Shown here piece by piece: positions 45 through 56,882 of a stretch of DNA of 64,000 nt (within the stretch, counting starts at the first letter, position 1; each line of letters starts with the position of its first letter). The position numbers and the translations under genes were made by a program. The notes beneath the pieces were generated by a model. It had not been told where the DNA came from and did no database searches. It was given only the letters and a program-made list of their open reading frames with translations. Origin of the DNA: a virus; IMG/VR virus record IMGVR_UViG_3300045107_000106, positions 1 through 64,000 of that record. One strand, written 5' to 3'.

Positions 45-1064
45 CTACTGCCGCTCGTGGAGGGATTGATTGATACCCTCCATCTGCTCCTGGGTGCGGC
101 GGGCGGCGTTCAACTGGCGGTCCAGGTTCTCCCGCAGCCGGTCCATGTCGCTGTTGTTAGCCTTCGCCCGCAGCGAGCGGATGCCGGACACGATCTCACC
201 CATGTGATCGACGGCCTTGCCCACATCCTCGATGATCTTGTCCCGGTCGGCCTGGGCCAAGTCTTTCGCCTTCCCACGCAGGTTCCGGGACGTTTCCCAG
301 ATGTTGAAGGCGTCTTCGAGTTTCTTAACGACCAGATTGAAGAGTTCCTTAATCTGATCGACCGTCTGCGGTGTGCAGTATTCCGACAGCTTTCCGGCCT
401 CGTAGTCGGCCATGAAGGCGTCGTACAACTCCCGCATGTCCCGGAGGTAGGTCTGGTCCCTCGGGTCACGGTCACGGCACAGCTTCTCGTCCAGTTCGTC
501 GAGCTTCTGCTTCGTGGCTTCCTTCGTCTCAAGCTCGATGGTCTTGGCGGCGTTCTGGACGACCTTCTCAAGATTCAGTGCAAAGTTAGTCCCGGCCCAA
601 CCCAGGCCGACCAGCACACCCAAGAACCCCAGGAACGTCATCACCGCCCCGCCGCCGAATGCCCACGACAGGAGCAGCATGGTAATGCCGATGGTGGTCG
701 AGCCGACCGTCAGCGGCGTCACAAACAAGTCGAGTATCGCCTTCTTGCGGATGCTGTCCATAGTTGGCTTCGCTTTCGGCTGGGCGGTGTATGGTTCTCC
801 CGGCCTCAACTTCGGGCGAGGCGGGCGTGGCTTCGGTGGTTCTGGGTCAAACCCCGGTATCCCTTGAAACAGCCGGTCTTTCAGAATCCCGTCAATCGGC
901 AACGGGGGCGGAAGATCGGGCAGTTTCTTCTTCGGCGTGGGCTTCTTCTTTGGAACGATGGGGCGGACTTCCACCCCATCGAGAGAACTCTTCTTGGCTT
1001 TCTTTCCGTAGTAGGCCGGGGTGTTCGGTTTCTTCCCCGGCCTGTTTCCCTTCCGTGGCGGCAT
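45..1064 (-). CDS. proline-rich, two-TM, coiled-coil membrane protein
   Basis: A 339-residue protein of unknown function. Residues 1-100 are basic and rich in proline, lysine and arginine. Two hydrophobic segments follow (about 113-135 and 138-162), separated only by a short glycine turn, so both long tails probably face the same side. The remaining 170 residues are charged, helical and coiled-coil-like, with no catalytic motif seen. It is the last gene of a leftward run with two solute-binding/OmpA proteins and a VWA protein, only 7 bases after the upstream gene. I infer an inner-membrane scaffold for that envelope set. Confidence 0.75.
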   Translation of the reverse strand: MPPRKGNRPGKKPNTPAYYGKKAKKSSLDGVEVRPIVPKKKPTPKKKLPDLPPPLPIDGILKDRLFQGIPGFDPEPPKPRPPRPKLRPGEPYTAQPKAKPTMDSIRKKAILDLFVTPLTVGSTTIGITMLLLSWAFGGGAVMTFLGFLGVLVGLGWAGTNFALNLEKVVQNAAKTIELETKEATKQKLDELDEKLCRDRDPRDQTYLRDMRELYDAFMADYEAGKLSEYCTPQTVDQIKELFNLVVKKLEDAFNIWETSRNLRGKAKDLAQADRDKIIEDVGKAVDHMGEIVSGIRSLRAKANNSDMDRLRENLDRQLNAARRTQEQMEGINQSLHERQ

Positions 1065-1071
1065 ATAATCC

Positions 1072-2622
1072 TCAGTACGGCAGTTGTCCCACGATGAAGG
1101 CCACCGTCATAGAGCCATTCGGCTCGGACACATCGGCCTTAACACGATTCCGGTCGATCCCGTGCCCCACCAGCCAGTCCACGGCGGATTGCGCCCGCTG
1201 AGCCGCCAGTGCCTTGTTCGCCTCGATGTCGCCCTCCTTGCTGCAATGCCCCCGGACGATCAGGTAGTATTGCGGCCAGGACTTCATCGTGTTGACCAGA
1301 TCGGCAAGGGTCTGCTCGCTCGCCGTCGTCAACGTCGCCCCGCCCCGTGCGAACACCAAGCGAGGGACTTGCAGTGTACCAACCGGGATCAGTTCCTTCC
1401 ACTGCTTCTCGTTCAGGGCGACCAGTGCCTTGTCCTGCCGAACCTCTTCCGGCTGCACACCGGGGTGGAAGTTCTTGTCAAAAAGGCCACGGATCGTCTT
1501 GTCGTAGTAAAGGCGGTTGGGCTGCCCGCCGGTCGGGTCACGCTCCATCGCCCCGGTCTTGATGAGGACGCCGTTCAGGTTGACGATCATGTCCTCAATG
1601 TGCTGGTAGCCGGTCCCCTGAGTCAGCCCGAAGTGGGCATAGTTCTCCTGGGTGTTCTTCCACCGGATGCCGTCCGCCACCCGCTTCGCAGACGCTTGGC
1701 TGATCGGCTCGCCGGTGAGCTTGGAGTCGTTGAACACCAACTCCTCACGGTTCGTCAGGGTGAAGTTCGCCCGGAAGTAGCTCTCCACCGTCTGCCGCAC
1801 CACGTCCTCGTTCTTGATGAGGAAGTCACGGCTCACCACCAGCACGTCCACGACGTACCCCCGGAACCGGCTGCTGTCGATCAGCACCTTGTAGTCGGGG
1901 TTGTCCAACATCTTCGAGACGTAAGGTTCCCAGAGTACGAACGCCTTCTTCTCGCCCGGTCGGGACTTCCGGTACTCCTCGTAGACCGCCTTCGCCCCGT
2001 TGACCTTCACGAACTGGCTCGCTTTGAGGCGGTCCAGGTTGAAGTTCGCCATCAGCACCCGAGTCAGCGTCTCACTCGGACTATCCCCGGTCATGACGAT
2101 CCGCATCTCCGGGTCGTTGAGGGCGTCCACGTTCGGGATCGAGCGGTAAGCGACCAGGGCGTCCGCCCCCTTCGTCTCGTCGATCAGTGAAACCACGACG
2201 GCCGGGATGTCCCCCAACTCCGCACTGCTCTTAATCAATGCGTCGAGAGTGAACACCGCCATCTGCGTCTCGCCACTCTTCAGCGAGGCGAGCCGCTTCG
2301 GGTAGTCCGCCTGATCGTCCACGAGATCACACTTGATCCCTCGGGACGATAGTTCGTTACGGAACTCGTCGGTGCGGAGTACGGCGTACCCGCTGAACGA
2401 GTCGATGCCCATCTTGAACTTGATCTTGTAGTGGGCTTCCGAACTCGTGTCGTCCAGTTGCTTTTGCTTGGCCTTCGCCTCCTCCTCGGCCTGCTGTGCC
2501 GCCTTGCGAGGGACGAAAATCCATCGGTAGCCCATCACCCCAATAGCCAGGATGACGAGCCACACGACGGCGACGATCACCATCCGTGCCTTGCCCATGC
2601 CGTTGTCTTGCGCCATGTTCAT
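1072..2622 (-). CDS. membrane-anchored solute-binding / OmpA-like fusion protein
   Basis: 516 residues. An N-terminal hydrophobic helix (about 13-32) can anchor or export the protein. The middle (about 60-330) reads like a NitT/TauT/SsuA-type periplasmic solute-binding fold. The C-terminus (about 410-516) has the OmpA-like pattern, including 'VRGHCSKEGD' and a run of AAQRAQSA helix residues, a domain that binds peptidoglycan in known families. The start is fixed by GGAGGT just upstream. It abuts the VWA gene on one side and the coiled-coil membrane gene on the other, so the four genes look co-transcribed. No ABC permease or ATPase is seen nearby, so a role in sensing or anchoring is more likely than transport; that is inference. 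Confidence 0.75.
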   Translation of the reverse strand: MNMAQDNGMGKARMVIVAVVWLVILAIGVMGYRWIFVPRKAAQQAEEEAKAKQKQLDDTSSEAHYKIKFKMGIDSFSGYAVLRTDEFRNELSSRGIKCDLVDDQADYPKRLASLKSGETQMAVFTLDALIKSSAELGDIPAVVVSLIDETKGADALVAYRSIPNVDALNDPEMRIVMTGDSPSETLTRVLMANFNLDRLKASQFVKVNGAKAVYEEYRKSRPGEKKAFVLWEPYVSKMLDNPDYKVLIDSSRFRGYVVDVLVVSRDFLIKNEDVVRQTVESYFRANFTLTNREELVFNDSKLTGEPISQASAKRVADGIRWKNTQENYAHFGLTQGTGYQHIEDMIVNLNGVLIKTGAMERDPTGGQPNRLYYDKTIRGLFDKNFHPGVQPEEVRQDKALVALNEKQWKELIPVGTLQVPRLVFARGGATLTTASEQTLADLVNTMKSWPQYYLIVRGHCSKEGDIEANKALAAQRAQSAVDWLVGHGIDRNRVKADVSEPNGSMTVAFIVGQLPY

Positions 2623-3504
2623 TTACCTCCGGGAAGACCCAGCGGCGACGACAACGACGATGACGAGGAAGACCACGACCCCGATACACACCCAGCCCCA
2701 GGTCGGAAGTCCGCCGCCACCCGTGTTAGCCTTCGCTACCTCGGTCGGGTTTACAGTGCCGCTCTTGTCCAGTGTACCGTCTTCCTTCACGGTGTAAACC
2801 GTGACCGGCTCGCCGATGGGCGTGTCCGGCGGCGACGTGAGGGCGGTGATGATGTGCCCGCTCAGCTTCGGGTCGAGTGGGGCGATCATGCGGAAGTCCT
2901 CGTCCGACACGGCACTGTTGCCGCCGCCCACTTCGGCGACCGAGGCGTTGACGGCTTGCTTCAGCGACTCCGGGTCGTTGGCCCGCATGTACACCTTGCT
3001 GCTCTTGGCGAGGGCGTGGTCGTCCTTCATCCCGACGCCGATGGTTTCGATCACGATCCCACGGGCCTTGACGTGGACGATGTTCTCAGCCAGGAGGTTG
3101 CCGTCGGTTGCTTCGCCGTCGGTGGCGATGACGAGCTTGAACGTGCCCAGCCCCTTGTCACGCTTGCGGGCTTCGATCAGTGCATCCGCTGCGTCCTTGA
3201 CGTACTTGCCCAGCGGGGTGCCGCCGCTCGCTCGGGTGGCACGGATCGCTTGCTTCAGCGACTCCTTGTTGACCGGGCCGAGGTTGGCGATCCAGCCGTT
3301 GAACGTGATGATCCCGATGTGCGTGTTCGGGCCGACCCGATCCACGACGCCGCAGAGGGCGTCCTGAGCGGCCTTCATCTTCGAGACGCTGCCCAGCCGC
3401 TCGTCCATCGACCCGCTCGTGTCCAGTAGCACCACCACGTTGTCGGCGGCGAAGGACGGCGAGGCGAGGAAGAGTAATGCGAACGCTGCCAGTAGCTTCT
3501 TCAT
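2623..3504 (-). CDS. secreted VWA-domain protein with C-terminal TM
   Basis: About 293 residues from the methionine that begins a clear signal peptide (MKKLLAAFALLFLASPSFA). The mature protein starts straight into a von Willebrand A domain with the metal-site motif 'DTSGSMDE', and later has 'IATDGEATDG', typical of VWA folds. The last 25 residues form a hydrophobic segment followed by SSRR, so it is likely held in the inner membrane facing the periplasm. Its stop touches the start of the solute-binding/OmpA gene downstream. VWA domains mediate protein contacts; here the partners are probably the neighbouring OmpA-type proteins. An in-frame ATG upstream at 3531 would spoil the signal peptide and was not used. 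Confidence 0.8.
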   Translation of the reverse strand: MKKLLAAFALLFLASPSFAADNVVVLLDTSGSMDERLGSVSKMKAAQDALCGVVDRVGPNTHIGIITFNGWIANLGPVNKESLKQAIRATRASGGTPLGKYVKDAADALIEARKRDKGLGTFKLVIATDGEATDGNLLAENIVHVKARGIVIETIGVGMKDDHALAKSSKVYMRANDPESLKQAVNASVAEVGGGNSAVSDEDFRMIAPLDPKLSGHIITALTSPPDTPIGEPVTVYTVKEDGTLDKSGTVNPTEVAKANTGGGGLPTWGWVCIGVVVFLVIVVVVAAGSSRR

Positions 3505-3533
3505 GTTATGGAACTCCGGGAGTGTGTACATGG

Positions 3534-3559
3534 AAAGGGCGGGGCAATAGACCCCGCCC
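3534..3559 (-). terminator. terminator after the second solute-binding/OmpA gene
   Basis: A GC-rich eight-base stem (GGGCGGGG 3537-3544, CCCCGCCC 3552-3559) is followed, on the minus strand, by a short T-run. It lies between the OmpA-type gene at 3574-5433 and the VWA gene, so it may lower downstream expression. Confidence 0.5.
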
Positions 3560-3573
3560 CCACAGAGAACGGC

Positions 3574-5433
3574 TTAGTAGTCGAAGTCCTTCGGCTTGAT
3601 CGCCTCCGGGTTGACCCGGACCAGCCGGAACTCCACCCGCATGTTACGCTTCGCCTCGTCCATGTTGGACGGCTTGGCGACCAGCGGCTCCCGGATGCCC
3701 ATGCCCACCGGGACGATCTGGCTCGGGTCCAGGTTCAGCCCGTTCTTCTTGGCGTACTCGATGATCGACTTCTTCACTTCCTCGGCACGGGTCTGGCTCA
3801 GGTTCAGAGCCGCCTGCATCGTCTCCTGGGGGTTCGGGTCGGAACCCTGGAAGTCCCCGGCGGCGATGTGCTTCATCACGTCGTTCGTGGCCGTCAGGTC
3901 GAGCGCCTTCCCGTTCAGCTTGTAACTGTACGGGGTGCCCTTGCCGTCGCCCTCACGGGTGATGATCCCCTTGCTCATCCCGGCCTTGATGAAATCGACC
4001 AACGTCTTCGTCGGGTCGGCGTGGCCCCGGATCACGATTGCCGCCTTGCCGAACGTCTGCGTGCCCTGGACGACCCGCTTGAACTCCGCACCGTACACGT
4101 CGATGGAGAACTTCTCCTGGTTCGGCTCGAAGTTGATGGCGAAGCTCACGAGCGTCCGGTCGTCGAGGTTCTGGTTCGGGAAGGCGTCGATGCCCTCGGC
4201 CTTGAACCCACCCCCGGCGAACTTCGGCTCCTCGTAGGTCAACCCGGCCATCCCGGACAGCTTCCGCCAGTCGAACCCGGACTTGTCGTAGCCGAACCGC
4301 TCCTTCGCCGCACCCAGCGTCACCGCCAGATCGAGGCCGGACTTCAGCTTGGCGTCGAACCCGTTCAGGTTGCCCGGATCGTTGAAGTACACGATGTTCC
4401 CAGGTAGGCCGACGAAGCTGGCGTCACTGACCAGCCCGTGAGCGTCCACTTCCAGTGTCGGCAGCACCTTCTCACCGTACACGCCCTGGGCCATCTTCAG
4501 GAGGTTCATGTACTCGGGCGACTTGCCCTTGCCGTCGTTGTAGGCATTCTTCCAGGCGACCAGTTGGCTCGTCGCCTTCAGGTAGCCCGCAGTGAACTTC
4601 TCGCACCAGTCCCGGTTGTTCTTGAAGAAGTCCGACCGGACCATGTACACGTCGGCGACCGACCGGCTCATCTGGGCGGTGGACACGACGACGTGCGCAC
4701 CCTTGACGGTCCCCTCGGCACCGCTCCCCTTCTTATCCAACCCGCCCGTCAGGCCGAGCATGTCGGGGCTGATGACGCACACGCAGTCGATGCTGGCGTC
4801 CTTCTTGAATAACTCGCCGGGGCTGTCCTCGCCGGTCAGGTTCTTCGTCCAGACCACGTTGATGTCGGTCCACTTCAGCCCGCCCGCCCGGAGGGCGTCG
4901 TCGAGCAAGCCGACGTGCGGCCCGCCCTGCTGGAGAGCGAACTTCTTCCCCTTGAACTCGTTGATCGTGTGGACCGCCTCACGGGCAACAACGTGGTCGC
5001 CCGCACTCCACGTCAACTGGAACAGCATGACCGGCTTGGTGGCCGGGTCGCTGCCCAGAACGTCCGAGGCCAGGGCGATCTGGGCCGTCGTACCCCGGAT
5101 GACCGGAGTCTTCCCGCCCATGTAGTCCCGGACCTGCTGGACGAAGTTGTCTCCGTTGACCATCTTCAGCTTCAGCCCGGCTTGGCCGTAGATGGACTTC
5201 GGGTCGGTCGAGCCGCCCCCGCCGTTGGCGAGGAAGGTCGCCACGTCGCCACCCCAGGTCAGGTACGGAACCGGCATCTCAGCCGCAGCCTCAACCGGCT
5301 TGACCTGCACCTGCCCGACGGTCTGGCTGAAGTGCGGAACGGTCGGGGCCGCAGGCGGCTGGGCCGACATCGGGGACGAAATCATCCCCACCACGGCGGC
5401 TAACAGCACGCCGAAGGCACAGAGCTTCTTCAT
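3574..5433 (-). CDS. periplasmic solute-binding / OmpA-like fusion protein
   Basis: 619 residues with a signal peptide (MKKLCAFGVLLAAVVGMISS, then SAQP). Residues about 45-400 resemble NMT1/SsuA-type solute-binding proteins. The C-terminal third (about 430-619) is OmpA-like, with 'VIRGHADPTK' and a later TRAEEVKKSI helix and 'KRNMRVEFRL' strand. It is organised like the 516-residue protein downstream but is soluble rather than membrane-anchored, suggesting an old duplication and divergence. GGAGAG lies upstream of the start. It is the first gene of the leftward envelope set. Confidence 0.78.
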   Translation of the reverse strand: MKKLCAFGVLLAAVVGMISSPMSAQPPAAPTVPHFSQTVGQVQVKPVEAAAEMPVPYLTWGGDVATFLANGGGGSTDPKSIYGQAGLKLKMVNGDNFVQQVRDYMGGKTPVIRGTTAQIALASDVLGSDPATKPVMLFQLTWSAGDHVVAREAVHTINEFKGKKFALQQGGPHVGLLDDALRAGGLKWTDINVVWTKNLTGEDSPGELFKKDASIDCVCVISPDMLGLTGGLDKKGSGAEGTVKGAHVVVSTAQMSRSVADVYMVRSDFFKNNRDWCEKFTAGYLKATSQLVAWKNAYNDGKGKSPEYMNLLKMAQGVYGEKVLPTLEVDAHGLVSDASFVGLPGNIVYFNDPGNLNGFDAKLKSGLDLAVTLGAAKERFGYDKSGFDWRKLSGMAGLTYEEPKFAGGGFKAEGIDAFPNQNLDDRTLVSFAINFEPNQEKFSIDVYGAEFKRVVQGTQTFGKAAIVIRGHADPTKTLVDFIKAGMSKGIITREGDGKGTPYSYKLNGKALDLTATNDVMKHIAAGDFQGSDPNPQETMQAALNLSQTRAEEVKKSIIEYAKKNGLNLDPSQIVPVGMGIREPLVAKPSNMDEAKRNMRVEFRLVRVNPEAIKPKDFDY

Positions 5434-5489: not shown

Positions 5490-6047
5490 TCACATGTCCG
5501 GGGCGGCAAGAACGTCCTCGACGGTGATGTCCGGCACCCACCGCCACAACATCCGCTCCAACGCCCACGCCGGGACGTTGTGCGACTCTTCCGACTTCTT
5601 CGCCAGGAACAGGGCGAACTCCTTCAGCTTCGCCTTGTTCTCCCGCTTGTTCCGTAACAGCGGGGCGTGTTCCAACCACCACGGCGAAGTCGGTTCCTCG
5701 AACCGCACGGTGTAACCCTGCGGCACGGCGTACTGAACATACGCCTTCGGTTCCGACGGCGTGGTGTTCGTGTTGTCGATGATGATGAGCGGGTGCCCCT
5801 CCTCGATCAACTTCTGTGCCCGAACCTGATTCCACTTGTGGGCGAACCCAACGTGGTTCGGGCGGAACGAATACTTCGCCGGTTGCTCGGGTTCCACGAG
5901 CTTGTAGAAGTATTCGTCGGTGGACAGCACCGCCCCGACCGTACCGGCGATCTCCTTCGCCCGGTACGACTTCCCGGAAGAAGGCAGGCCACGCATGATG
6001 ACCAGTTCCTTCACCGCCGGGGTTTCGAGTTCCGTTACACCGTCCAT
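5490..6047 (-). CDS. P-loop kinase (polynucleotide kinase / N4BP2-like)
   Basis: 185 residues. 'MRGLPSSGKSYRAKEI' (about 18-33) is a Walker A motif, followed by 'LSTDEYF' and by 'IIIDNTNTTPSEPKAY', the arrangement of the AAA_33 / zeta-toxin / polynucleotide-kinase-like family. Such enzymes phosphorylate nucleic-acid ends or small molecules; the substrate cannot be told here. A start at 6047 follows GGAAGGGA. A 58-residue membrane gene lies 3 bases upstream, so the two are probably co-transcribed. Confidence 0.75.
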   Translation of the reverse strand: MDGVTELETPAVKELVIMRGLPSSGKSYRAKEIAGTVGAVLSTDEYFYKLVEPEQPAKYSFRPNHVGFAHKWNQVRAQKLIEEGHPLIIIDNTNTTPSEPKAYVQYAVPQGYTVRFEEPTSPWWLEHAPLLRNKRENKAKLKEFALFLAKKSEESHNVPAWALERMLWRWVPDITVEDVLAAPDM

Positions 6048-42163: not shown

Positions 42164-44224
42164 ATGGAAAAAACAGCATTGACCAAATACTCTGCGGGCT
42201 TCGACCGCAAGAAGTACCTCGAACTGAACCAAGAGATGAGCTATGACGAGTACATCGCTCACGCTCTGAAGAACCCTCGGGTCGCACGGAACGCATTTCA
42301 GTACATCTACGACATGATTATGTCGAAGGGCACTTCGGAGTTCGAGCGATACCGCAAGACCTACACCCACTATAACTTCTTCGACGATCCCAAGATTCCG
42401 ATCTACGGTCTTGAAGAAACACTCGACCAATTGGTGAACTTTATCCACGGGGCAGCCGGTGGGTACGGCACCGAGAAGCGGGTACTCCTTCTCCACGGCC
42501 CGGTCGGATCGGCAAAGTCCACGATCTGCCGCTTGCTTAAGAAGGGGTTGGAAGAATACTCCAAGACCCGTGAGGGTGCTTGGTACAGTTATAAGTGGGT
42601 TAATCTACCCACGGAAGGCGAGTTCGCCGTCTCCACGACGACGGAAGACCCGTGCCCGCTGCACGAAGACCCGAGTCGTCTGATGGACCCGGACCAGCGT
42701 GAAGCGTTCTTCGCCGACCTGAACCTGTCCCTGGCCGAAGCATCCGGCGGGGAGGCACCGTACAAGCTCCGCAGCGAAGGGGAAATGTGCCCCCGGTGCA
42801 AGACGTACATGAAGATGCTGCTGAAGAAGTACGACGGCGATTGGGACAAGATCGTCCGTGACCACATCCGTGTCGTCCGGCTCGTCCACAGCGAGATCGA
42901 CCGGGTTGGCGTCGGCACCTTCCAGCCGAAGGACGAGAAGAACCAGGACTCGACCGAACTGACGGGCGACCTGAACTTCGGCAAGGTGAGCCACTACGGG
43001 TCCGACTCGGACAGCCGTGCCTTCAACTTCGACGGCGAGTTCTGCGTTGCCAACCGTGGCGTGATGGAATTCATCGAAATGCTCAAGTTGAGCAACGAGT
43101 TCCTTTACGACCTGCTGGGTGCCTCGCAGGAACACAACATCAAGCCGAAGAAGTTCCCGCAGGTCAAGATCGACCAGTTCATCGTGGGCCACACCAACCA
43201 CGCCGAACTCGAACGCCTGCAAGGCAACCGCTTCATGGAAGCCCTCCGTGACCGGACGGTGAAGATCGACGTGCCGTACCTGCTCCGCTGGACGGACGAG
43301 ATCAAGGTGCTGGAGAGCGACTACGGTCCAGGCAAGGTGAAGCAGCACATCATGCCGCACACCCTGGAGATCGCAGCCCTCTTCGCAATCCTCACCCGTC
43401 TGAAGGACGACAAGGACGTGAAGCTCGACCTTCGGGACAAGGCCAAGCTGTACGACGGCCGGGCACTGCCGGGCTGGACGGAAGACTCGGTAAAGGAACT
43501 GAGGGACAAGTACCCGACGGAAGGTCTGGATCAGGGCGTGTCCGCACGTTACATCCAAGACAAGATTTCGAACTGCTTGGCTCGTAGCGTCAAGGGTTAC
43601 GTCAACGTCTTCCACGTTCTGAACGAACTGAAGGCAGGGTTCTACAACTCGTCCATGATTGATGTCGAACACATCAAGAAGTACGAGGAAGCCCTGGACT
43701 TGGCGATCAAGGAGCTTCAGGAAATCCTGAAGGCCGAGGTTCAGAAGGCGTTGGTGGCCGACGAGAACATCATCGAACGGGTCTGTGCCAAGTACATTGA
43801 CAACGTGGTGGCGTATGTCAACAAGGAAAAGATCATCAACCCGATCACCAAGCAGCCCCAGGAGCCTGATGAGCGGCTGATGCGGAGCATCGAAGAGAAG
43901 ATCGACATCCCCGAGCAAGGTGCCAACGACTTCCGCCGGAGCTTGGCGTCGTTCATCGGGACGCTGACGATCAAGAAGAAGGAGTTCCGGTGGGACAGCA
44001 ACCCGGAACTGCGGCGTGCCCTTGAGGCGAAGGTGTTCGAGGACACCAGGGACTCCATCAAGCTGTCGGCCCTCACGGGCGAGGCAGCGGCAGCCGACCC
44101 GGACAGCCGGGAAAAGCTGGAGGCCATCAAGGTCCGACTCATCAACCAGTACGGGTACAACGAACAGTCCGCCACGGACGTTCTGGAATACGTCGCCAGC
44201 CTGTTCACGGGCGGCACCGACTGA
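42164..44224 (+). CDS. prkA: PrkA-like AAA+ serine protein kinase
   Basis: 686 residues. A P-loop 'LLHGPVGSAKSTICRLLKKG' (about 109-128) is followed by the PrkA AAA core, including 'FVAHTNHAEL'-like 'IVGHTNHAELERLQGNRFM' and 'MEALRDRTVKIDVPYLLRW', then a C-terminal kinase-like region (about 400-686, 'LARSVKGYVNVFHVLNEL'). PrkA (YeaG) is a widespread stress-linked kinase that works with DUF444 and SpoVR proteins. All three are found here in order. Its own promoter lies upstream and a strong terminator downstream. Confidence 0.87.
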   Translation: MEKTALTKYSAGFDRKKYLELNQEMSYDEYIAHALKNPRVARNAFQYIYDMIMSKGTSEFERYRKTYTHYNFFDDPKIPIYGLEETLDQLVNFIHGAAGGYGTEKRVLLLHGPVGSAKSTICRLLKKGLEEYSKTREGAWYSYKWVNLPTEGEFAVSTTTEDPCPLHEDPSRLMDPDQREAFFADLNLSLAEASGGEAPYKLRSEGEMCPRCKTYMKMLLKKYDGDWDKIVRDHIRVVRLVHSEIDRVGVGTFQPKDEKNQDSTELTGDLNFGKVSHYGSDSDSRAFNFDGEFCVANRGVMEFIEMLKLSNEFLYDLLGASQEHNIKPKKFPQVKIDQFIVGHTNHAELERLQGNRFMEALRDRTVKIDVPYLLRWTDEIKVLESDYGPGKVKQHIMPHTLEIAALFAILTRLKDDKDVKLDLRDKAKLYDGRALPGWTEDSVKELRDKYPTEGLDQGVSARYIQDKISNCLARSVKGYVNVFHVLNELKAGFYNSSMIDVEHIKKYEEALDLAIKELQEILKAEVQKALVADENIIERVCAKYIDNVVAYVNKEKIINPITKQPQEPDERLMRSIEEKIDIPEQGANDFRRSLASFIGTLTIKKKEFRWDSNPELRRALEAKVFEDTRDSIKLSALTGEAAAADPDSREKLEAIKVRLINQYGYNEQSATDVLEYVASLFTGGTD

Positions 44225-44241
44225 TAAGCAGTAGCCCTGAG

Positions 44242-44275
44242 AAAGCCCGGCCAAGTGCCGGGCTTTTTCTTTAAT
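44242..44275 (+). terminator. terminator after the PrkA-like gene
   Basis: AAAGCCCGG / CCGGGCTTT with loop CCAAGTG, then TTCTTTAAT. Confidence 0.85.
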
Positions 44276-44307
44276 AGGACTTCCAAATGTAAGCCGGATT
44301 GTGTAAT

Positions 44308-44757
44308 ATGTTGGGCATGGGTGTTAGTCCATTCAAGCGGTCTTCCTCCGGCCCCCGACGAGCGTACTACCCGTCCGGCCCCTGGATCGACGAAAACGGC
44401 AAGCCGTGCAAGTCGCCGACTTACGCTGCTTCCGATTACGACAAGAAGAAGCGGAAGAAGACGGAGCCGCCGAACCCCGACCCGCACAACTACAAGTTCG
44501 TGCGTGTCGAGGAAGCAGATGGATTTCTCTTAGTCCAACTCAATTATCCTGACTGCACCAACTATGAGGGGAACAAGATTCTTCTCTTCAGGGGTGTGAA
44601 GCTGATCGATCTGGTCAACCAGAAATACATCGACCCACACTTCTTCCAAGCGAAGGATATCGCCTCCCCCATTGCCCGCTTCGTCCCCACGGAAGAGGGT
44701 TGGAAAATGGGCCTTACTTTAATCACAGCGTTGAAAGCGAGTACGAATGCCTCGTAG
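44308..44757 (+). CDS. hypothetical protein within the PrkA set
   Basis: About 149 residues from ATG at 44308 (MLGMGVSPFKRSSSGPRR; 44317 is also possible). N-terminal half is Lys/Pro-rich; the C-terminal half, with 'IDLVNQKYIDPHFFQAKD' and 'ARFVPTEEGWKMGLTLIT', is folded. It overlaps the DUF444 gene by 11 bases. Not a usual member of PrkA clusters. Confidence 0.55.
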   Translation: MLGMGVSPFKRSSSGPRRAYYPSGPWIDENGKPCKSPTYAASDYDKKKRKKTEPPNPDPHNYKFVRVEEADGFLLVQLNYPDCTNYEGNKILLFRGVKLIDLVNQKYIDPHFFQAKDIASPIARFVPTEEGWKMGLTLITALKASTNAS

Positions 44758-45943
44758 AATTCAAGAAGACCACAAAGACTTCCGGGACGTTGTAGGCGGA
44801 CGTGTCCGTAGGGAACTGAAGAAGTTCCTGAAAGGGAAGGTCGTCCGCCTACGACCGAAGAACGGGAAGCTCCAGTTCACCATCCCGCAGATCGACCAGC
44901 CGCACTTCCTCCACGGGGACAACGGCGAGGGCGTCGGCCGGGGCAAGGGTAAGAAGGGTCAGGTCATCGGCCAAGACCCGCAAGAGGGCGATCCGCAGGC
45001 TGGCGAAGAACACGCCGACGGGATCACCATCCAGGTCGATCTCGAAGAAGTGTTGAAGGTCATGCAGGAAGAACTCGGCCTGCCGGACCTGAAGCCGAAG
45101 CCGTCGGAAGTGTACGAGGAAGTCAAGACGGTTTACAACGACATCTCGAAGGTCGGCCCGGAATCGCTACGCCACACCCGCCGCACGATGTACGAGGCGA
45201 TGAAGCGGATGGCGATGATGGGCACGCTGGGCGAGAAGAAGATGCTCCCCGGCCACTCCGTCCCGATGCGGGTCATCACCCTGGCCGACGGGGACCGCCG
45301 CTACCGTCAGTACAAAGAGATCAAGATTCCGTCGTCGAACGCCGTGGTGTTCTTCATCCGGGACTACTCCGGGTCGATGGACGACTTCCGCTGCGACATC
45401 GTTTCCGACATGTCCTGGTGGATCGACGTGTGGATTCGCAAGTTCTACGAGCGGGTAGAGCGGGTCTACATGATCCACGACACGGAGGCCGAAGAGGTAG
45501 ACGAGAAGAAGTTCTACGAAGTCCGGTTCGGCGGCGGCACCAAGATTTCGTGTGCCTTCGACGAGGCGGCGAAGATGCTGGAGAACCGCTTCCCGGCCCA
45601 CAACTACAACATCTACGTCATCTACTTCTCTGACGGCGACAATTGGGAAGAAGACAACGCCAAAGTGTCCGACCTGTTGGGTAAGAAGTTCCCGCCGGAA
45701 GTGGTGAACATGGTCGGGTTCGTGCAGATTTGCACCTACAACTACTCACGCAGTATCAAGAAGTTCGTTGACGAACAGATCAAGACCGGGGCCATCGGCA
45801 AGAACGTCCGCACGGTTACGATTGGTGAAGAGTCCTCCGACAGCAGCAGCATGTTCGGCGGCGGCACGCTCATGACGCCCGAGGAGCGGGACGAGCAAAT
45901 CCTGAAGGGAATCAAGACTCTGTTCGGTAAGGAGAAGAACTAA
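44747..45943 (+). CDS. DUF444 (YhbH/YeaH-type) protein
   Basis: 398 residues. The N-terminus is basic ('QEDHKDFRDVVGGRVRREL'). The C-terminal half is a VWA-like domain with the metal-site 'FFIRDYSGSMDDFRC', then 'GGGTKISCAFDEAAKMLE' and 'YVIYFSDGDNWEEDN'. This is the DUF444/YhbH arrangement that accompanies PrkA and SpoVR in bacteria. It overlaps the previous gene and shares a base with the SpoVR start. Confidence 0.85.
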   Translation: MPRRIQEDHKDFRDVVGGRVRRELKKFLKGKVVRLRPKNGKLQFTIPQIDQPHFLHGDNGEGVGRGKGKKGQVIGQDPQEGDPQAGEEHADGITIQVDLEEVLKVMQEELGLPDLKPKPSEVYEEVKTVYNDISKVGPESLRHTRRTMYEAMKRMAMMGTLGEKKMLPGHSVPMRVITLADGDRRYRQYKEIKIPSSNAVVFFIRDYSGSMDDFRCDIVSDMSWWIDVWIRKFYERVERVYMIHDTEAEEVDEKKFYEVRFGGGTKISCAFDEAAKMLENRFPAHNYNIYVIYFSDGDNWEEDNAKVSDLLGKKFPPEVVNMVGFVQICTYNYSRSIKKFVDEQIKTGAIGKNVRTVTIGEESSDSSSMFGGGTLMTPEERDEQILKGIKTLFGKEKN

Positions 45944-47544
45944 TGGCTATCAGCAAAATGTTGAACGGTTCGCCTATCCTGATGGGCAACAACAACGTGC
46001 CGGGCGTTCGCATTCACAAAGAAGTCATGGATGTCATGGACACCATCTTCAGTGAATGCCGTAAGTTCGGCCTGGACTTCTACCCAACCATCGTCGAGTT
46101 CTTGACCTACGACGAAATCTCCGAGATCGCCTCATACGGCGGCTTCCCGATCCGCTACCCGCACTGGAGCTTCGGGATGGAGTACGAGGAACTGTCCCGT
46201 GGGTACGAGTACGGCATGCACCGGATCAGCGAGATGGTTGTGAACAACAACCCTTGCTACATCTACTGCCTGGACTCGAACACGCTGGTGGACAACATCG
46301 ACGTGATCGCCCACGCCCTCGGCCACAACCACTTCTTCAAGAACAACGTGTTCTTCAAGGGGACGCACACCGGCATGATGGGCAAGTTCGCCGACCATGC
46401 CCGCCGCATCCGTAAGTACATGGCCCGGTGGGGCAAGGAGCGGGTGACGGAGTTCATCGACCACTGCCTGCGGCTGAACACGCTCATCGACCCGATGGAC
46501 AACCTGTATCAGAAGCAGATCAACGACGTGATCGTCAGCGACCACCGGGAATACCGGACGCCGAACCGCCGTCACGCCTCGTCGAACTACATGGACGACT
46601 GGATCAACCCGGTCGAGTACATCAAGAAGGAGAACGAGAAGATCGAAAAGGCGGACGCCGCCGACTACCTGGACATCTTCGACAAGCCGAACCGTAACAT
46701 CTTCGGCTATCTGCGTGACCACGCCCCGCTCAAACCGTGGCAGCAGGACATCATCAGCATGCTGTACGAGGAGGCAATGTACTTCTCGCCGCAGCGGTTG
46801 ACGAAGATGTTGAACGAAGGGTTCGCCTCGTACACCGACTACTACCTGATGTGCGTCCACGGGCTGTGCGGCCTCGGCCAGAAGCGGCACGACATGGGCA
46901 TCATCCAGTACGCCAAGCACAAGATGTTGGTTTTGGGCGGCAAGTACAGCCAGAACCCTTACAAGCTGGGCTTCGAGCTACTGACCGACATCGAGGAGCG
47001 GTGGAACAAGGGCCGCTTCGGTCGGGAGTACGAGGAGTGCAAGAGCATGAAGGAGCGGGCCGAGTGGGACAAGAAGCTCGGGCTGGGCAAGGAGAAGGTG
47101 TTCGAAGTCTGCCAGTTCTACAACGACGCCCTGGCGATTGCGGAATTCTTCACGCCGGACTTCTGCGAGAAGATGGAATACTTCGAGTACAAGAAGTTTA
47201 ATAACGGCCAGACGAAGATTCAGAGCCGGGACTACCATAGTATTAAGTCGCAACTCGTCCGGCGTTACATGAATGGCGGGTTGCCAGATATTCGTCTGAC
47301 CGACCCGAACCACCTGGGCAAAGGCTGGTTCCTCATGCAGCACTACGGTTGCGGGCTGCCGCTGTACGATCCTTACGCAAAGGAAACGATCACATCGGTG
47401 TTCCGCATCTGGGGTAGCCCCGTGGTTCTGGCTACGAAGAACCCGGACGGTGAGGAATTCGTCTACCTCTGCGATGGGACGAACTCCGAGAAGGATGTTC
47501 ACGTCATGAGACGGGCGGACTACGAGAAGGAGTTTGTCAAATGA
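45943..47544 (+). CDS. SpoVR / YcgB family protein
   Basis: 533 residues. 'EIASYGGFPIRYPHWSFGME' and 'VNNNPCYIYCLDSNTLVDNI' and 'VIAHALGHNHFFKNNVFFKG' are close to the most conserved blocks of SpoVR proteins, whose function is poorly known but which are linked to sporulation cortex or stationary-phase survival. The protein is full length for the family. It completes the PrkA-DUF444-SpoVR trio. Confidence 0.88.
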   Translation: MAISKMLNGSPILMGNNNVPGVRIHKEVMDVMDTIFSECRKFGLDFYPTIVEFLTYDEISEIASYGGFPIRYPHWSFGMEYEELSRGYEYGMHRISEMVVNNNPCYIYCLDSNTLVDNIDVIAHALGHNHFFKNNVFFKGTHTGMMGKFADHARRIRKYMARWGKERVTEFIDHCLRLNTLIDPMDNLYQKQINDVIVSDHREYRTPNRRHASSNYMDDWINPVEYIKKENEKIEKADAADYLDIFDKPNRNIFGYLRDHAPLKPWQQDIISMLYEEAMYFSPQRLTKMLNEGFASYTDYYLMCVHGLCGLGQKRHDMGIIQYAKHKMLVLGGKYSQNPYKLGFELLTDIEERWNKGRFGREYEECKSMKERAEWDKKLGLGKEKVFEVCQFYNDALAIAEFFTPDFCEKMEYFEYKKFNNGQTKIQSRDYHSIKSQLVRRYMNGGLPDIRLTDPNHLGKGWFLMQHYGCGLPLYDPYAKETITSVFRIWGSPVVLATKNPDGEEFVYLCDGTNSEKDVHVMRRADYEKEFVK

Positions 47545-49214: not shown

Positions 49215-51164
49215 ATGGACTTCGTGTTGTCCCACCCCTGGCTGATGGTAGGTGCGGGGGTGGCGTTCGTCCTCCTGCTCCTGGTCTGGCTCGGCGTCCG
49301 CTTCGTGGCGAACGACCGACTGGCAATCGTGGAAAAGCTGTGGGGCAGCAAGTCCCTCAGTGAAGGCGACATCATCGCCCTCAACGGCGAGGCGGGCTTC
49401 GAGCCGGACGTGAAGCGTGGTGGCTTCCACTTCGGCTACTGGCGGTGGCAGTTCAAGTTCCACAAGCGGAAGCTCATCACCATCAAGCAAGGCAAGATCG
49501 GCTACGTCTTCGCACGGGCCGGGAGTGCCCTGGCCCCGACCCAGACACTCGGCACCGTCGTCGAGTGCAACAACTTCCAGAACGCCCGTGCGTTCTTGAA
49601 CAACGGCGGGCAGAAGGGTCGCCAGCGGGCCATCCTGCGTGAAGGCGTGTACGCCATCAACCTCGCTGTGTTCAGCGTCATCGCCGACGACGGCGTGTAC
49701 AGCCTGGACAACGACCGGAACCTGGAGTCGTGGCGTGAGCAACTGACCAACTGCCACGGGTTCGACCCGGTGGTGGTCGGGCAAGACGCCGACGACATCG
49801 GCATCGTGACCACCCAGGACGGCCCGGCTCTGGATCAGGGCGAGATCATCGCCCCGGCCGTCGGGACGAAGAAGGACGACCCGAACTACCACTCGAACTT
49901 CCAAGACATCGAGAAGTTCCTGGCCGCAGGCGGGCGGCGTGGCCTCCAGTACGCCGTGCTGCTGGACGGGACGTACTTCATCAACCGCTGGTTCGCCGAC
50001 GTGGAACTGAAGCCCAAGTTCGTCGTTCCCATCGGGAACGTCGGCGTGGTCGTCAGCTACTACGGCAAGCAAGGGACCGACACGAGCGGCACCAAGTTCC
50101 GCCACGGCGAGCGGGTCCACGAGGGCGAGCGGGGCGTGTGGGAAACCACGCTCGGTCCGGGCAAGTACCCGTTCAACCCCTACGCCGGGAACATCGTCCT
50201 GGTGCCGACCACGAACTTCGTGCTGCACTGGATCACGGGCAAGTCGGAAGGCCACAAGTACGACGAGAGCCTGAAGTCCATCGACCTGATTACGAAGGAC
50301 GCCTACGAGCCGATCCTGCCGCTGAGCGTCGTGGTTCACTGCGACTACCAGAAGGCTCCGAACGTCATCCAGCGGTTCGGTGATGTTAAGCAACTCATCA
50401 CCCAGACCATCGACCCGCTGCTGTCCGCCTTCTTCCGGGACGTGGCCCACAAGAAGACGATGCTGGAACTCGTTCACAGCCGGGACGAGATTCAGAAGCA
50501 GGCTCGTGTCGAACTGCGGGACAAGTTCCAAGAGTTCGACATCGAGTGCATCGACGTGCTGATCGGTCGCCCGGAGAGTGCGAAGGGCGACGACAAGATC
50601 GAGAACCTGCTGGAACAACTCCGGCAGCGGCAACTGTCGCTCGAACAGATCGAGACGTTCGGGAAGCAGGAAGCGGCTGCGGAGAAGCAGAAGTCGCTGA
50701 ACGACGCCCAGAGCCGGGCCGTTCTCCAGAAGGAACTGACGGCATCGGCGATCAAGATTCAGATCGCCGCCAACGACGCCGAAGCGAACCTCGCTCGGGC
50801 GAAGAAGGAAGCCGAACAGACCGTCGTCACCGCAGAGGCCGAAGCCAAGAAGCTCAGCCTCGAAGGTAAGGGTAAGGGCGAACTGATCCTGAGCGTCGGC
50901 CAGTCCGAGGCCGAAGTCCTCCAGAAGAAGATCGCCTCGTTCGGCGACAGCAACCTGTACGCCCTGAGCGTCATCGCCGAGTTCCTGTCCAAGAGCGAAC
51001 AGCCGCTCGTCCCGGCGACGGTGCTGGGTGGCGGCGGGGACAACGCTGGCGTCCTGAGCCTGCTGATGAACCTGATGGTCAAGGAGAAGATCACGCCCCG
51101 AGACGACGGCGTGACGTTCCTCAGCACGAAGAACGGCAACGGGCACGTCGTCGAAAAGAAGTAA
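49215..51164 (+). CDS. SPFH / flotillin-like membrane protein
   Basis: 649 residues. A single TM helix (about 9-32) is followed by a band-7/SPFH domain (about 33-390), including 'YGKQGTDTSGTKFRHGERVH' and 'SIDLITKDAYEPILPLSVVV', then a long coiled coil (430-590) rich in Lys, Glu and Gln with an 'AEAEAKKLSLEGKGKGEL' segment, the typical flotillin layout. These proteins organise membrane patches or hold proteases such as FtsH. A large one in a phage is noteworthy. It is between terminators, so it is its own unit. Confidence 0.82.
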   Translation: MDFVLSHPWLMVGAGVAFVLLLLVWLGVRFVANDRLAIVEKLWGSKSLSEGDIIALNGEAGFEPDVKRGGFHFGYWRWQFKFHKRKLITIKQGKIGYVFARAGSALAPTQTLGTVVECNNFQNARAFLNNGGQKGRQRAILREGVYAINLAVFSVIADDGVYSLDNDRNLESWREQLTNCHGFDPVVVGQDADDIGIVTTQDGPALDQGEIIAPAVGTKKDDPNYHSNFQDIEKFLAAGGRRGLQYAVLLDGTYFINRWFADVELKPKFVVPIGNVGVVVSYYGKQGTDTSGTKFRHGERVHEGERGVWETTLGPGKYPFNPYAGNIVLVPTTNFVLHWITGKSEGHKYDESLKSIDLITKDAYEPILPLSVVVHCDYQKAPNVIQRFGDVKQLITQTIDPLLSAFFRDVAHKKTMLELVHSRDEIQKQARVELRDKFQEFDIECIDVLIGRPESAKGDDKIENLLEQLRQRQLSLEQIETFGKQEAAAEKQKSLNDAQSRAVLQKELTASAIKIQIAANDAEANLARAKKEAEQTVVTAEAEAKKLSLEGKGKGELILSVGQSEAEVLQKKIASFGDSNLYALSVIAEFLSKSEQPLVPATVLGGGGDNAGVLSLLMNLMVKEKITPRDDGVTFLSTKNGNGHVVEKK

Positions 51165-54585: not shown

Positions 54586-55467
54586 ATGATGCTGGAACTC
54601 GCAGTCGCCGACGCCTACGGGGCATGTTTTGAAACCCTGTCGGCAAAGGACATCGGCGACACGAACGACCTGTCCTACCACAAGCGACTCCAGCCGTCGA
54701 TCATCAAGCGGGGTAAGTACACCGACGACGCCCAGATGAGCATCGGCGTGGCCGAAGCTATTCTGGAACGGGACGAGTGGACGAAGCCCTACCTCGCCCA
54801 GAAGTTCGTCGATGTCTTCCGCCGTGACCCCCGACGGGGCTACACCGGCCCGTTCTTCAACATCTTGACCGAGTGCCAGACCGGCGGCGACCTTCTCTCG
54901 AAAGTGGACGGCAAGAGCCGCAAGGGCGGCGGCTGCATGAGGGCCGGGCCGTGCGGCCTCTACCCGACGCTGGAAGAGGTTCAGGAACGGGCCGTCGAGC
55001 AGGCGAAGATCACCCACAACTCTGTCGTCGGCGTCATGAGTGCCGCTGCTGCGGCGTTCATGGTTCACTACTTCGCCTACGATTTGGGAGAGAAAGCCGA
55101 CCTACGGGAATGGCTGCACAACAACAACTTCCCGTCGAAAGTCACCGGGGCTATCGACGACCCGGAGGGCGAGTTCCGTGTTTGGGAACCCGGCCAGAAG
55201 GTCGGCAACTTCGGCTGGAGTGTCGTCCTGGCTGCTCTCGCCGCCATCGAGCGGACCGATTCCCTGGCCGAGTGCCTGAAGCAGTGCGTGGCCTGGGGCG
55301 GCGACACGGACACGGTGGCGACCGTCGCCCTGGCTGCGGCGTCCTGGTCGAAGGAGATGAAGAAGGACATGCCGCAGGGACTTGTTGACATGTTGGAGAA
55401 CGGCAGGTATGGTAGGGACTACCTGATCGAGTTGGATAACAAACTGAAGGCCAAGTTCGGCCTGTAA
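54586..55467 (+). CDS. ADP-ribosylglycohydrolase (DraG-like)
   Basis: 293 residues. 'KRGKYTDDAQMSIGVAEAIL' supplies the first metal-binding Asp pair, and 'AWGGDTDTVATVALAAASWS' the second GGDTD motif, as in DraG-type ADP-ribosyl-hydrolases. These remove ADP-ribose from proteins or nucleic acids. In a phage it may undo host defence or its own modifications; inference. It sits in a small-gene string. Confidence 0.85.
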   Translation: MMLELAVADAYGACFETLSAKDIGDTNDLSYHKRLQPSIIKRGKYTDDAQMSIGVAEAILERDEWTKPYLAQKFVDVFRRDPRRGYTGPFFNILTECQTGGDLLSKVDGKSRKGGGCMRAGPCGLYPTLEEVQERAVEQAKITHNSVVGVMSAAAAAFMVHYFAYDLGEKADLREWLHNNNFPSKVTGAIDDPEGEFRVWEPGQKVGNFGWSVVLAALAAIERTDSLAECLKQCVAWGGDTDTVATVALAAASWSKEMKKDMPQGLVDMLENGRYGRDYLIELDNKLKAKFGL

Positions 55468-56482: not shown

Positions 56483-56876
56483 GGGGCCGCTCCGGTATCG
56501 AACCGGCGTCAACGGCCGAAAGGACTTGCGTAGTGGTTGGTCGGTGGGCCACTTAAAAAAGCCGACTAAGCCTTAACTGGCGATACTCTCAGAATGGCTG
56601 CCTGAGTTGTGCCCTCGCAAGGGGGCACCGCAATAGCGGCCAAATGAGTCTTCGGACTCAGGGACTCACAGAAGCGATGCTCCAAGCGTCTGTGTTTCTC
56701 ACGCCAAAAAGGAGACGAAGCCTAGTGAGTGTCGGTTGTAGCTAGGCGGGTCGCTAACCGAGAATCCCGGTGGTTTTGCCAGTTGTACGGCACCGTGGAT
56801 TATCAACAACTGGATACACGCATAAACGCCTTCGGAAGTTCGCTTGGTCACAGGGGTTCGACTCCCCTCGGCTCCA
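56483..56876 (+). ncRNA. ssrA: transfer-messenger RNA (tmRNA)
   Basis: The 5' end GGGGCCG pairs with CGGCTCC at the 3' end (56869-56875), with a T-arm AGGGGTTCGACTCCCCT (56852-56868) and the usual 'TCCGGTATCGAACCGG' near the start. The tag frame reads GCC (56570-56572) to TGA (56603-56605) and codes ALTGDTLRMAA; the final Ala-Ala is as in known tags, while the penultimate residue is Met rather than Leu. CCA is not encoded (CTA follows the discriminator). tmRNA frees stalled ribosomes and tags the product for proteolysis. Several stem-loops (pseudoknot region) fill the middle. Confidence 0.88.
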
Positions 56877-56882
56877 CTAAGA

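Follow-up and report, generated by a model that had tools for sequence, protein, structure and literature searches.

Is a phage operon that encodes exported, wall-binding and membrane-anchored proteins complete in itself, or is it the visible part of something larger? The question is raised by four genes, A, B, C and D, which form one leftward unit on the − strand at the very start of the IMG/VR virus record IMGVR_UViG_3300045107_000106. The window analysed here comprises bases 1–64,000 of this linear viral record of 107,079 bases, and the remaining ~43 kb was also scanned. With moderate confidence we read A–D as the 5′ portion of a copy, carried by a phage, of a bacterial trans-envelope operon, A-B-C-D-P-S-T-U(-V), which would join an ATP-binding cassette (ABC) system to membrane maintenance of the ESCRT-III type. 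Gene order, protein families, conservation of motifs and distribution among phages and bacteria are observed. The letters A to D denote genes of the window, P, S, T, U and V those found downstream in relatives, and K the upstream neighbor, as follows:

Contig end past D: 1–44, no strand; inverted repeat at 12–35.
Gene D: 45–1064, − strand; 339 aa, two adjacent transmembrane (TM) helices, then a helical bundle; possible alternative start at 761.
Gene C: 1072–2622, − strand; 516 aa, N-terminal TM anchor, solute-binding domain, OmpA-like domain.
Gene B: 2623–3531, − strand; 302 aa, secreted VWA protein with complete metal ion-dependent adhesion site (MIDAS) and C-terminal TM anchor.
Gene A: 3574–5433, − strand; 619 aa, exported SsuA/NMT1-type solute-binding domain and OmpA-like domain.
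Gene K: 5490–6047, − strand; AAA_33 P-loop kinase-like, just upstream of A.

Using profiles for each gene, we found A-B-C-D followed by P, S, T and U in the same order in six distinct viral contigs (L004, L005, L017=L018, L019, L020 and L041=L043), and the full A-B-C-D-P-S-T-U series recurs in bacterial loci (L033, L034 and L012/L036). A V gene comes next in four of the viral contigs (L005, L017, L019 and L020) and in the bacterial loci L033, L034 and L036. The gene order first noted in a single contig is thus kept in other phages and in bacterial genomes. Homologues of the window's proteins in huge phages share this order at identities of 52–56% for A, 40–43% for B, 50–53% for C and 25–34% for D, so the four-gene set is not a chance assembly. 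The family is under purifying selection, with dN/dS in the phage pair L017/L021 of about 0.07 for A and 0.18 for B (the L017–L020 pair was left out for A, being out of frame).

The initial annotation had described one leftward unit of four genes, each product with its own export or membrane signal; all four open reading frames (ORFs) were found on the − strand, and hydropathy shows a signal or TM segment in each protein. Its gaps of 7 to 70 bases need one correction: C–D is 7 and A–B is 42 as called or ~69 if B begins at an internal MKKLL methionine, close to the range given, and B–C is actually 0. The folds it assigned, solute-binding and OmpA for A and C and VWA for B, are borne out by Pfam, by solute-binding protein (SBP) models and by profile searches of the PDB. 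As a single sequence A reaches OmpA (1.5e-4) and NMT1 (0.0018) only under the Pfam cut-offs; a 12-sequence profile of A matched sulfonate/nitrate-binding proteins in the PDB (3uif, 4.3e-6; 2x26, 8.4e-5; 3e4r, 1.8e-4) as well as the OmpA domain 3td3 (4.2e-5). A has an N-terminal signal by hydropathy, and its OmpA domain keeps the peptidoglycan-binding Asp and Arg (GHADPT ... NLSQTRA), a pair (GHxD, LSxxRA) retained in 21 of 22 A proteins, the window's included. In C the OmpA domain (PF00691, 6.2e-13) scores over the Pfam cut-off, the binding half matches SBP models (TIGR03427, 1.4e-7; SsuA_fam, 1.2e-4) and a TM anchor is predicted by hydropathy at residues 14–32; here the peptidoglycan-binding Asp is lost (GHCSKEGD) and the Arg kept. 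B carries a VWA domain (8.9e-15, over the Pfam cut-off) with a complete MIDAS (DTSGSM, the T of GGTPLG, and TDG), its DxSxS, Thr and Asp being invariant in 19 of 19 B proteins, and hydropathy places an N-terminal signal and a C-terminal TM segment at 281–299.

D is the member whose fold did not yield to the structural comparison: it is a TM-hairpin helical protein without a known relative. Hydropathy shows two adjacent TM helices within residues 113–154, followed by a helical bundle that is presumably cytoplasmic, and a fold search of the PDB gave no match, ESCRT-III folds included. Residues 1–101 are Pro/Lys-rich and are missing from 14 homologues, so translation of D may begin instead at Met102 (nt 761). 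D was considered and rejected as a PspA/Snf7 homologue (hhalign probability of D against P, 3%; no ESCRT-III fold match). Nor was a MotA-like TM partner for an OmpA protein found, as an ion-driven motor of the Zorya/MotAB type would have: D, with its pair of TM helices, does not match MotA, and a weak ZorB match is confined to the OmpA part of A.

The genes downstream of D in relatives encode the transporter. T matches Pfam BPD_transp_1 and U matches ABC_tran, each over the cut-off, which marks them as an ABC permease and an ABC ATPase; both are closest to TauC and the sulfate/nitrate types. S is a solute-binding lipoprotein (TIGR03427, 2e-39, below that model's cut-off; lipobox read from N-termini). 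All three fall under the NCBIfam cut-offs for SsuABC/TauABC. P appears to be PspA/Vipp1-like: its profile aligns collinearly with Vipp1/PspA chains of the PDB at E 0.024–0.04, and six of the seven best matches of a fold search were Vipp1/PspA, each at E of about 0.05–0.08, which is suggestive and not proof. P lies under the PF04012 cut-off, and a fold search of a viral library returned unrelated coiled coils only. V is a VPS4/CDC48-like AAA+ protein (AAA, 5e-19; CDC48, 5e-20; CdvC, 8e-13) with a single Walker A motif in its C-terminal half. In the 436-kb phage, V (L005 18134–19504) is split, the profile resuming in another frame after a gap (G004 287227–287367), and the gene may be broken or interrupted there.

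These relatives bear directly on the statement of the initial annotation that the unit lacks an ABC transporter. Only 44 bases separate the end of D from the contig end, and in relatives the lipoprotein, permease and ATPase genes lie directly downstream, so the earlier claim of absence is unsafe; it reflects the end of the contig or, at the least, is untestable in this contig. Among relatives the start of P ranges from a 38-base overlap with D to a gap of 78 bases. The − strand of the contig ends in ...GTAAGATGATGATGT, with a possible next start codon at 10–1, and this could be the start of P, three codons proving nothing. We infer that this phage has P–V beyond its contig end.

Several points weigh against this reading. 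Profiles found none of P–V in the window or in the contig's other 43 kb, and no match to T. A 10-bp hairpin-like inverted repeat follows D at 12–35 (the count of such sites is not above that in shuffled sequence), and the module occupies another map position than in the 595-kb uncultured huge phage LR756511.1, so this copy could be shortened. The assignment of P to PspA comes from weak E-values and an AlphaFold2 (AF2) model with a pLDDT of 75, coiled coils are known to give false matches, and the N-terminal helix of P is no more amphipathic than shuffled residues. V is absent from LR756511.1, and the Pirellulales loci are without P and V (in G001, whose locus also has neither, a close V homologue lies on another contig); P and V are thus not strictly obligate. 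Finally, the link of these genes to membrane repair is only a prediction. The repeat and the map position, together with partial versions elsewhere (L010/L011 with few module genes, L041 with a short C, L014 with A alone), also favor an alternative in which only A–D remain here, the ABC, PspA-like and AAA+ half having been lost when the module moved, and A–D acting alone as a sensor or envelope tether. We think this improbable, as a contig ending 44 bases past D offers no observed absence and the remaining genes are present in all six full viral relatives.

That the contig is phage, as the initial annotation had taken it to be, follows from its collinearity over about 85 kb with LR756511.1. 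Thirty-five of its 132 ORFs match the 255–390 kb part of that genome, and apart from the module the matches fall nearly all in one collinear inverted block (13.8–94.7 kb here, 386.6–301.7 kb in LR756511.1). Replication genes of the contig match PHROGs or Pfam families for DNA polymerase, UvsX-like, gp32-like, SbcC/D, ribonucleotide reductase and thymidylate synthase proteins. A match to phrog_2, which we take to be the terminase, is weak in this contig (1.2e-5) and strong in LR756511.1 (7e-43) and 3300037467 (1e-43). In LR756511.1 the module lies inside the block, at 310.6–319.1 kb; at the matching site here (about 85.3–89.1 kb) stand aminotransferase, acetyltransferase, epimerase and glycosyltransferase-like genes, names that we read from their sequences. 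Relative to LR756511.1, then, the module has been displaced by about 85 kb.

How widely is the module carried by phages? When A and C were searched by tblastn against 50,697 phage records, LR756511.1 was the one record that covered them in full (52% and 50% identity). IMG/VR relatives are 3300017388 (436 kb), 3300027976/3300027983, 3300037467 (299 kb), 3300015263 (94 kb), 3300032053 (cut by its contig end) and 3300005681/3300005690 (494 kb). Most viral relatives are metagenomic contigs, and scans with single sequences or narrow alignments gave few of them, broader alignments more. The permease as query against the same 50,697 records found one real phage, again LR756511.1, plus apparent bacterial contigs; named phages hardly ever carry a complete ABC importer of this family. 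The records labeled 'Acinetobacter phage MD-2021a' (CAKLQH/CAKLQF) hold many bacterial transporter genes (cysA, tauB, tauC, ssuB) and look bacterial.

A distant version, found by profiles only, occurs in complete circular Lak megaphages, where genes for a TM coiled-coil protein, an SBP-OmpA protein (OmpA, 2e-16; NMT1_2, 9.5e-9), a permease and an ATPase are clustered. The Prevotella Lak locus (MK250023, MK250016) shares these components with the present module and differs in being distant (A/C profile E of about 1e-26), in showing no VWA or second SBP-OmpA gene and in its recoded TAG. The Lak clusters (L047, Lak-B4 274902–295924; L048, Lak-A1) are unannotated and come from complete gut megaphages of humans and baboons, and a terminase-like gene of 720 aa lies about 6 kb upstream. 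Another arrangement is found in the viral-labeled contigs L045/L046, which encode SBP-OmpA (A), VWA (B), a short OmpA protein, a 217-aa protein, an XpaC-like protein (PF10112) and TelA (PF05816); the A-type SBP-OmpA gene with VWA looks like a core that recurs with membrane partners that can be exchanged. The 217-aa protein resembles the ORF at L033 2898–3497, which adjoins the bacterial AAA+ gene. Toxic-anion-resistance loci of the TelA/XpaC kind are alike in that L045/L046 have A and B beside XpaC-like and TelA genes; the window instead has D, and its close relatives D plus ABC and PspA-like genes. An origin of the window's module from TelA/XpaC loci was rejected, TelA being absent from the contig and seen only in the divergent L045/L046 version.

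In bacteria, the operon stands on contigs of metagenome-assembled genomes with ordinary chromosomal flanks, one contig being 1.8 Mb long. Planctomycetota (Pirellula and others) have A-B-C-D-S-T-U and other bacteria A-B-C-D-P-S-T-U-V, and few genomes have the operon: 6 of 246 in the Planctomycetota and 2 of 237 in the Myxococcota. In a tree of A and C, six planctomycete loci join all the phage sequences in a strongly supported group (100/100) that stands apart from the other bacteria. Monophyly of the phage sequences was rejected in this tree (approximately unbiased test, p = 0.019), with long-branch caveats, and repeated exchange between phages and planctomycetes would be the simplest reading. 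An operon known from bacterial chromosomes, placed at a contig end, might also be host DNA joined to phage DNA through contamination or a chimeric assembly. We regard this as very improbable: K–A synteny is shared with four viral contigs (L017, L018, L020 and L021), the module recurs in the collinear block of LR756511.1 and in complete Lak genomes, and the window groups with phage sequences in the tree, weakly (80/95). K itself is a neighbor, its membership of the envelope system being unproven.

The initial annotation had not recognized the set as a described phage system. Bacterial operons of this kind were already reported, in one sentence and supplementary tables with OGG56892.1 as an example, by Ravi et al. 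(2024; PMC11237479), who proposed that OmpA binds peptidoglycan, PBPB binds the solute moved by the ABC system and PspA and AAA+ proteins remodel the membrane. No phage copy appears in that paper, whose main text is silent on VWA; the main text of Al-Shayeb et al. (2020; PMC7162821) is without the words 'transporter', 'PspA' and 'ESCRT'. We found no phage-encoded ABC/PspA/OmpA system in the literature searched, the Lak papers of 2019 and 2021 included, and an unlabeled supplementary listing is possible. On the phage side, a known kind of bacterial operon appears to be new in its setting. The operons of Ravi et al. share with the full module, as seen in relatives of this contig, a fusion of SBP (PBPB) and OmpA, which A and C both are, an ABC ATPase and permease, a protein that resembles PspA (weakly in the case of P), a TM protein and an AAA+ protein whose one active ATPase domain is C-terminal. 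Their AAA+ protein has two AAA domains, the N-terminal one inactive, and V likewise has its single Walker A motif in the C-terminal half. Unlike them, the present operon is borne by huge phages, and its fixed order includes a VWA gene, a gene for a lipoprotein SBP and a pair of SBP-OmpA genes, of which the second has lost the wall-binding Asp. Canonical Psp (PspFABC) and Vipp1 systems share the PspA/Vipp1-like protein, but no PspF, PspB or PspC adjoins P.

What might such an operon do? S (lipoprotein SBP), T (TauC/SsuC-type permease) and U (ATPase) would form an ABC importer, to which A, tied to the wall through OmpA, and C, anchored in the inner membrane, would add periplasmic ligand-binding or sensing subunits. 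B may bridge A and C from the inner membrane, as an adaptor that binds protein in a metal-dependent (MIDAS) way, and the membrane hairpin of D could relay the periplasmic state to the cytoplasmic face and couple it to P. P, as a putative member of the ESCRT-III superfamily, would polymerize on the inner membrane and V would recycle it. The benefit, to a phage with a long infection, would most likely be a host inner membrane and envelope kept intact and a sustained inflow of solute. The formation of a complex, the roles given to topology and the biological purpose are what we infer from the observed gene set. More tentatively, at somewhat less than an even chance, several huge-phage lineages (LR756511-like, Lak and others) may carry a complete and previously undescribed trans-envelope machine that preserves or rebuilds the host envelope.

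Simple nutrient uptake is the main rival to this proposal. Phages carry the phosphate-binding protein PstS, and S, T and U are most like importers of taurine, sulfonate, nitrate and urea; a phage-supplied importer of the SsuABC/TauABC or nitrate type could bring in scarce sulfur or nitrogen, with OmpA and VWA merely positioning the binders. We judge this unlikely, since no conserved metabolic enzyme adjoins the module in bacterial or phage loci and three binding domains, a VWA protein, a PspA-like protein and an AAA+ protein would be superfluous for simple import. Likewise SsuABC/TauABC/NrtABC systems share the fold families of permease, ATPase and SBP, and the module differs from them in having no sulfonate or nitrate enzymes nearby, in its extra wall-anchored SBPs, VWA, PspA-like and AAA+ proteins and in scores below curated cut-offs.

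The initial annotation favored sensing, adhesion or superinfection control over uptake, and the last two gained no specific support. Secreted, wall-tied and VWA adhesion-type domains on a phage would suit proteins that remodel the host surface and block adsorption or DNA entry by rival phages, and the surface proteins of huge phages may alter susceptibility to other phages (Al-Shayeb et al., 2020; PMC7162821). This explanation is less probable still than uptake or a shortened A–D set: the same operon, with its ABC transporter, stands on bacterial chromosomes, and no good PADLOC model was found, the matches being weak (ZorB and TerY at 0.002) or, for V with IetA, confined to the generic AAA part.

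Elsewhere in the window, consecutive genes at 42164–47544 encode PrkA kinase, DUF444 (YeaH/YhbH) and SpoVR, the bacterial yeaG-yeaH-ycgB stress set, which is conserved in LR756511.1 at 343.5–349 kb (60%, 49% and 57%). An SPFH/band-7 protein of 649 aa is encoded at 49215–51164, and in Sinorhizobium phage Phosso an SPFH gene lies two genes upstream of a TelA gene; membrane-domain proteins thus recur in huge phages. A tmRNA gene with the tag GDTLRMAA occupies 56483–56877, and an ADP-ribosylglycohydrolase gene (Pfam, 4.5e-31), possibly counter-defence or NAD-related, occupies 54586–55467; the L005 ORF at 298–1284 resembles the latter.

If our reading is true, the module would represent phage-encoded envelope maintenance, in which an ABC importer and wall-anchored sensors are coupled to a bacterial ESCRT-III/AAA+ membrane-remodeling pair. 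The recurrence of a fixed system of 8–9 genes among several lineages of huge phages, and its scattered presence in planctomycetes and myxobacteria, suggests that such phages tend the host envelope as well as breach it. It makes testable both the role of the bacterial operon and whether phage shock proteins also serve as phage-borne tools.

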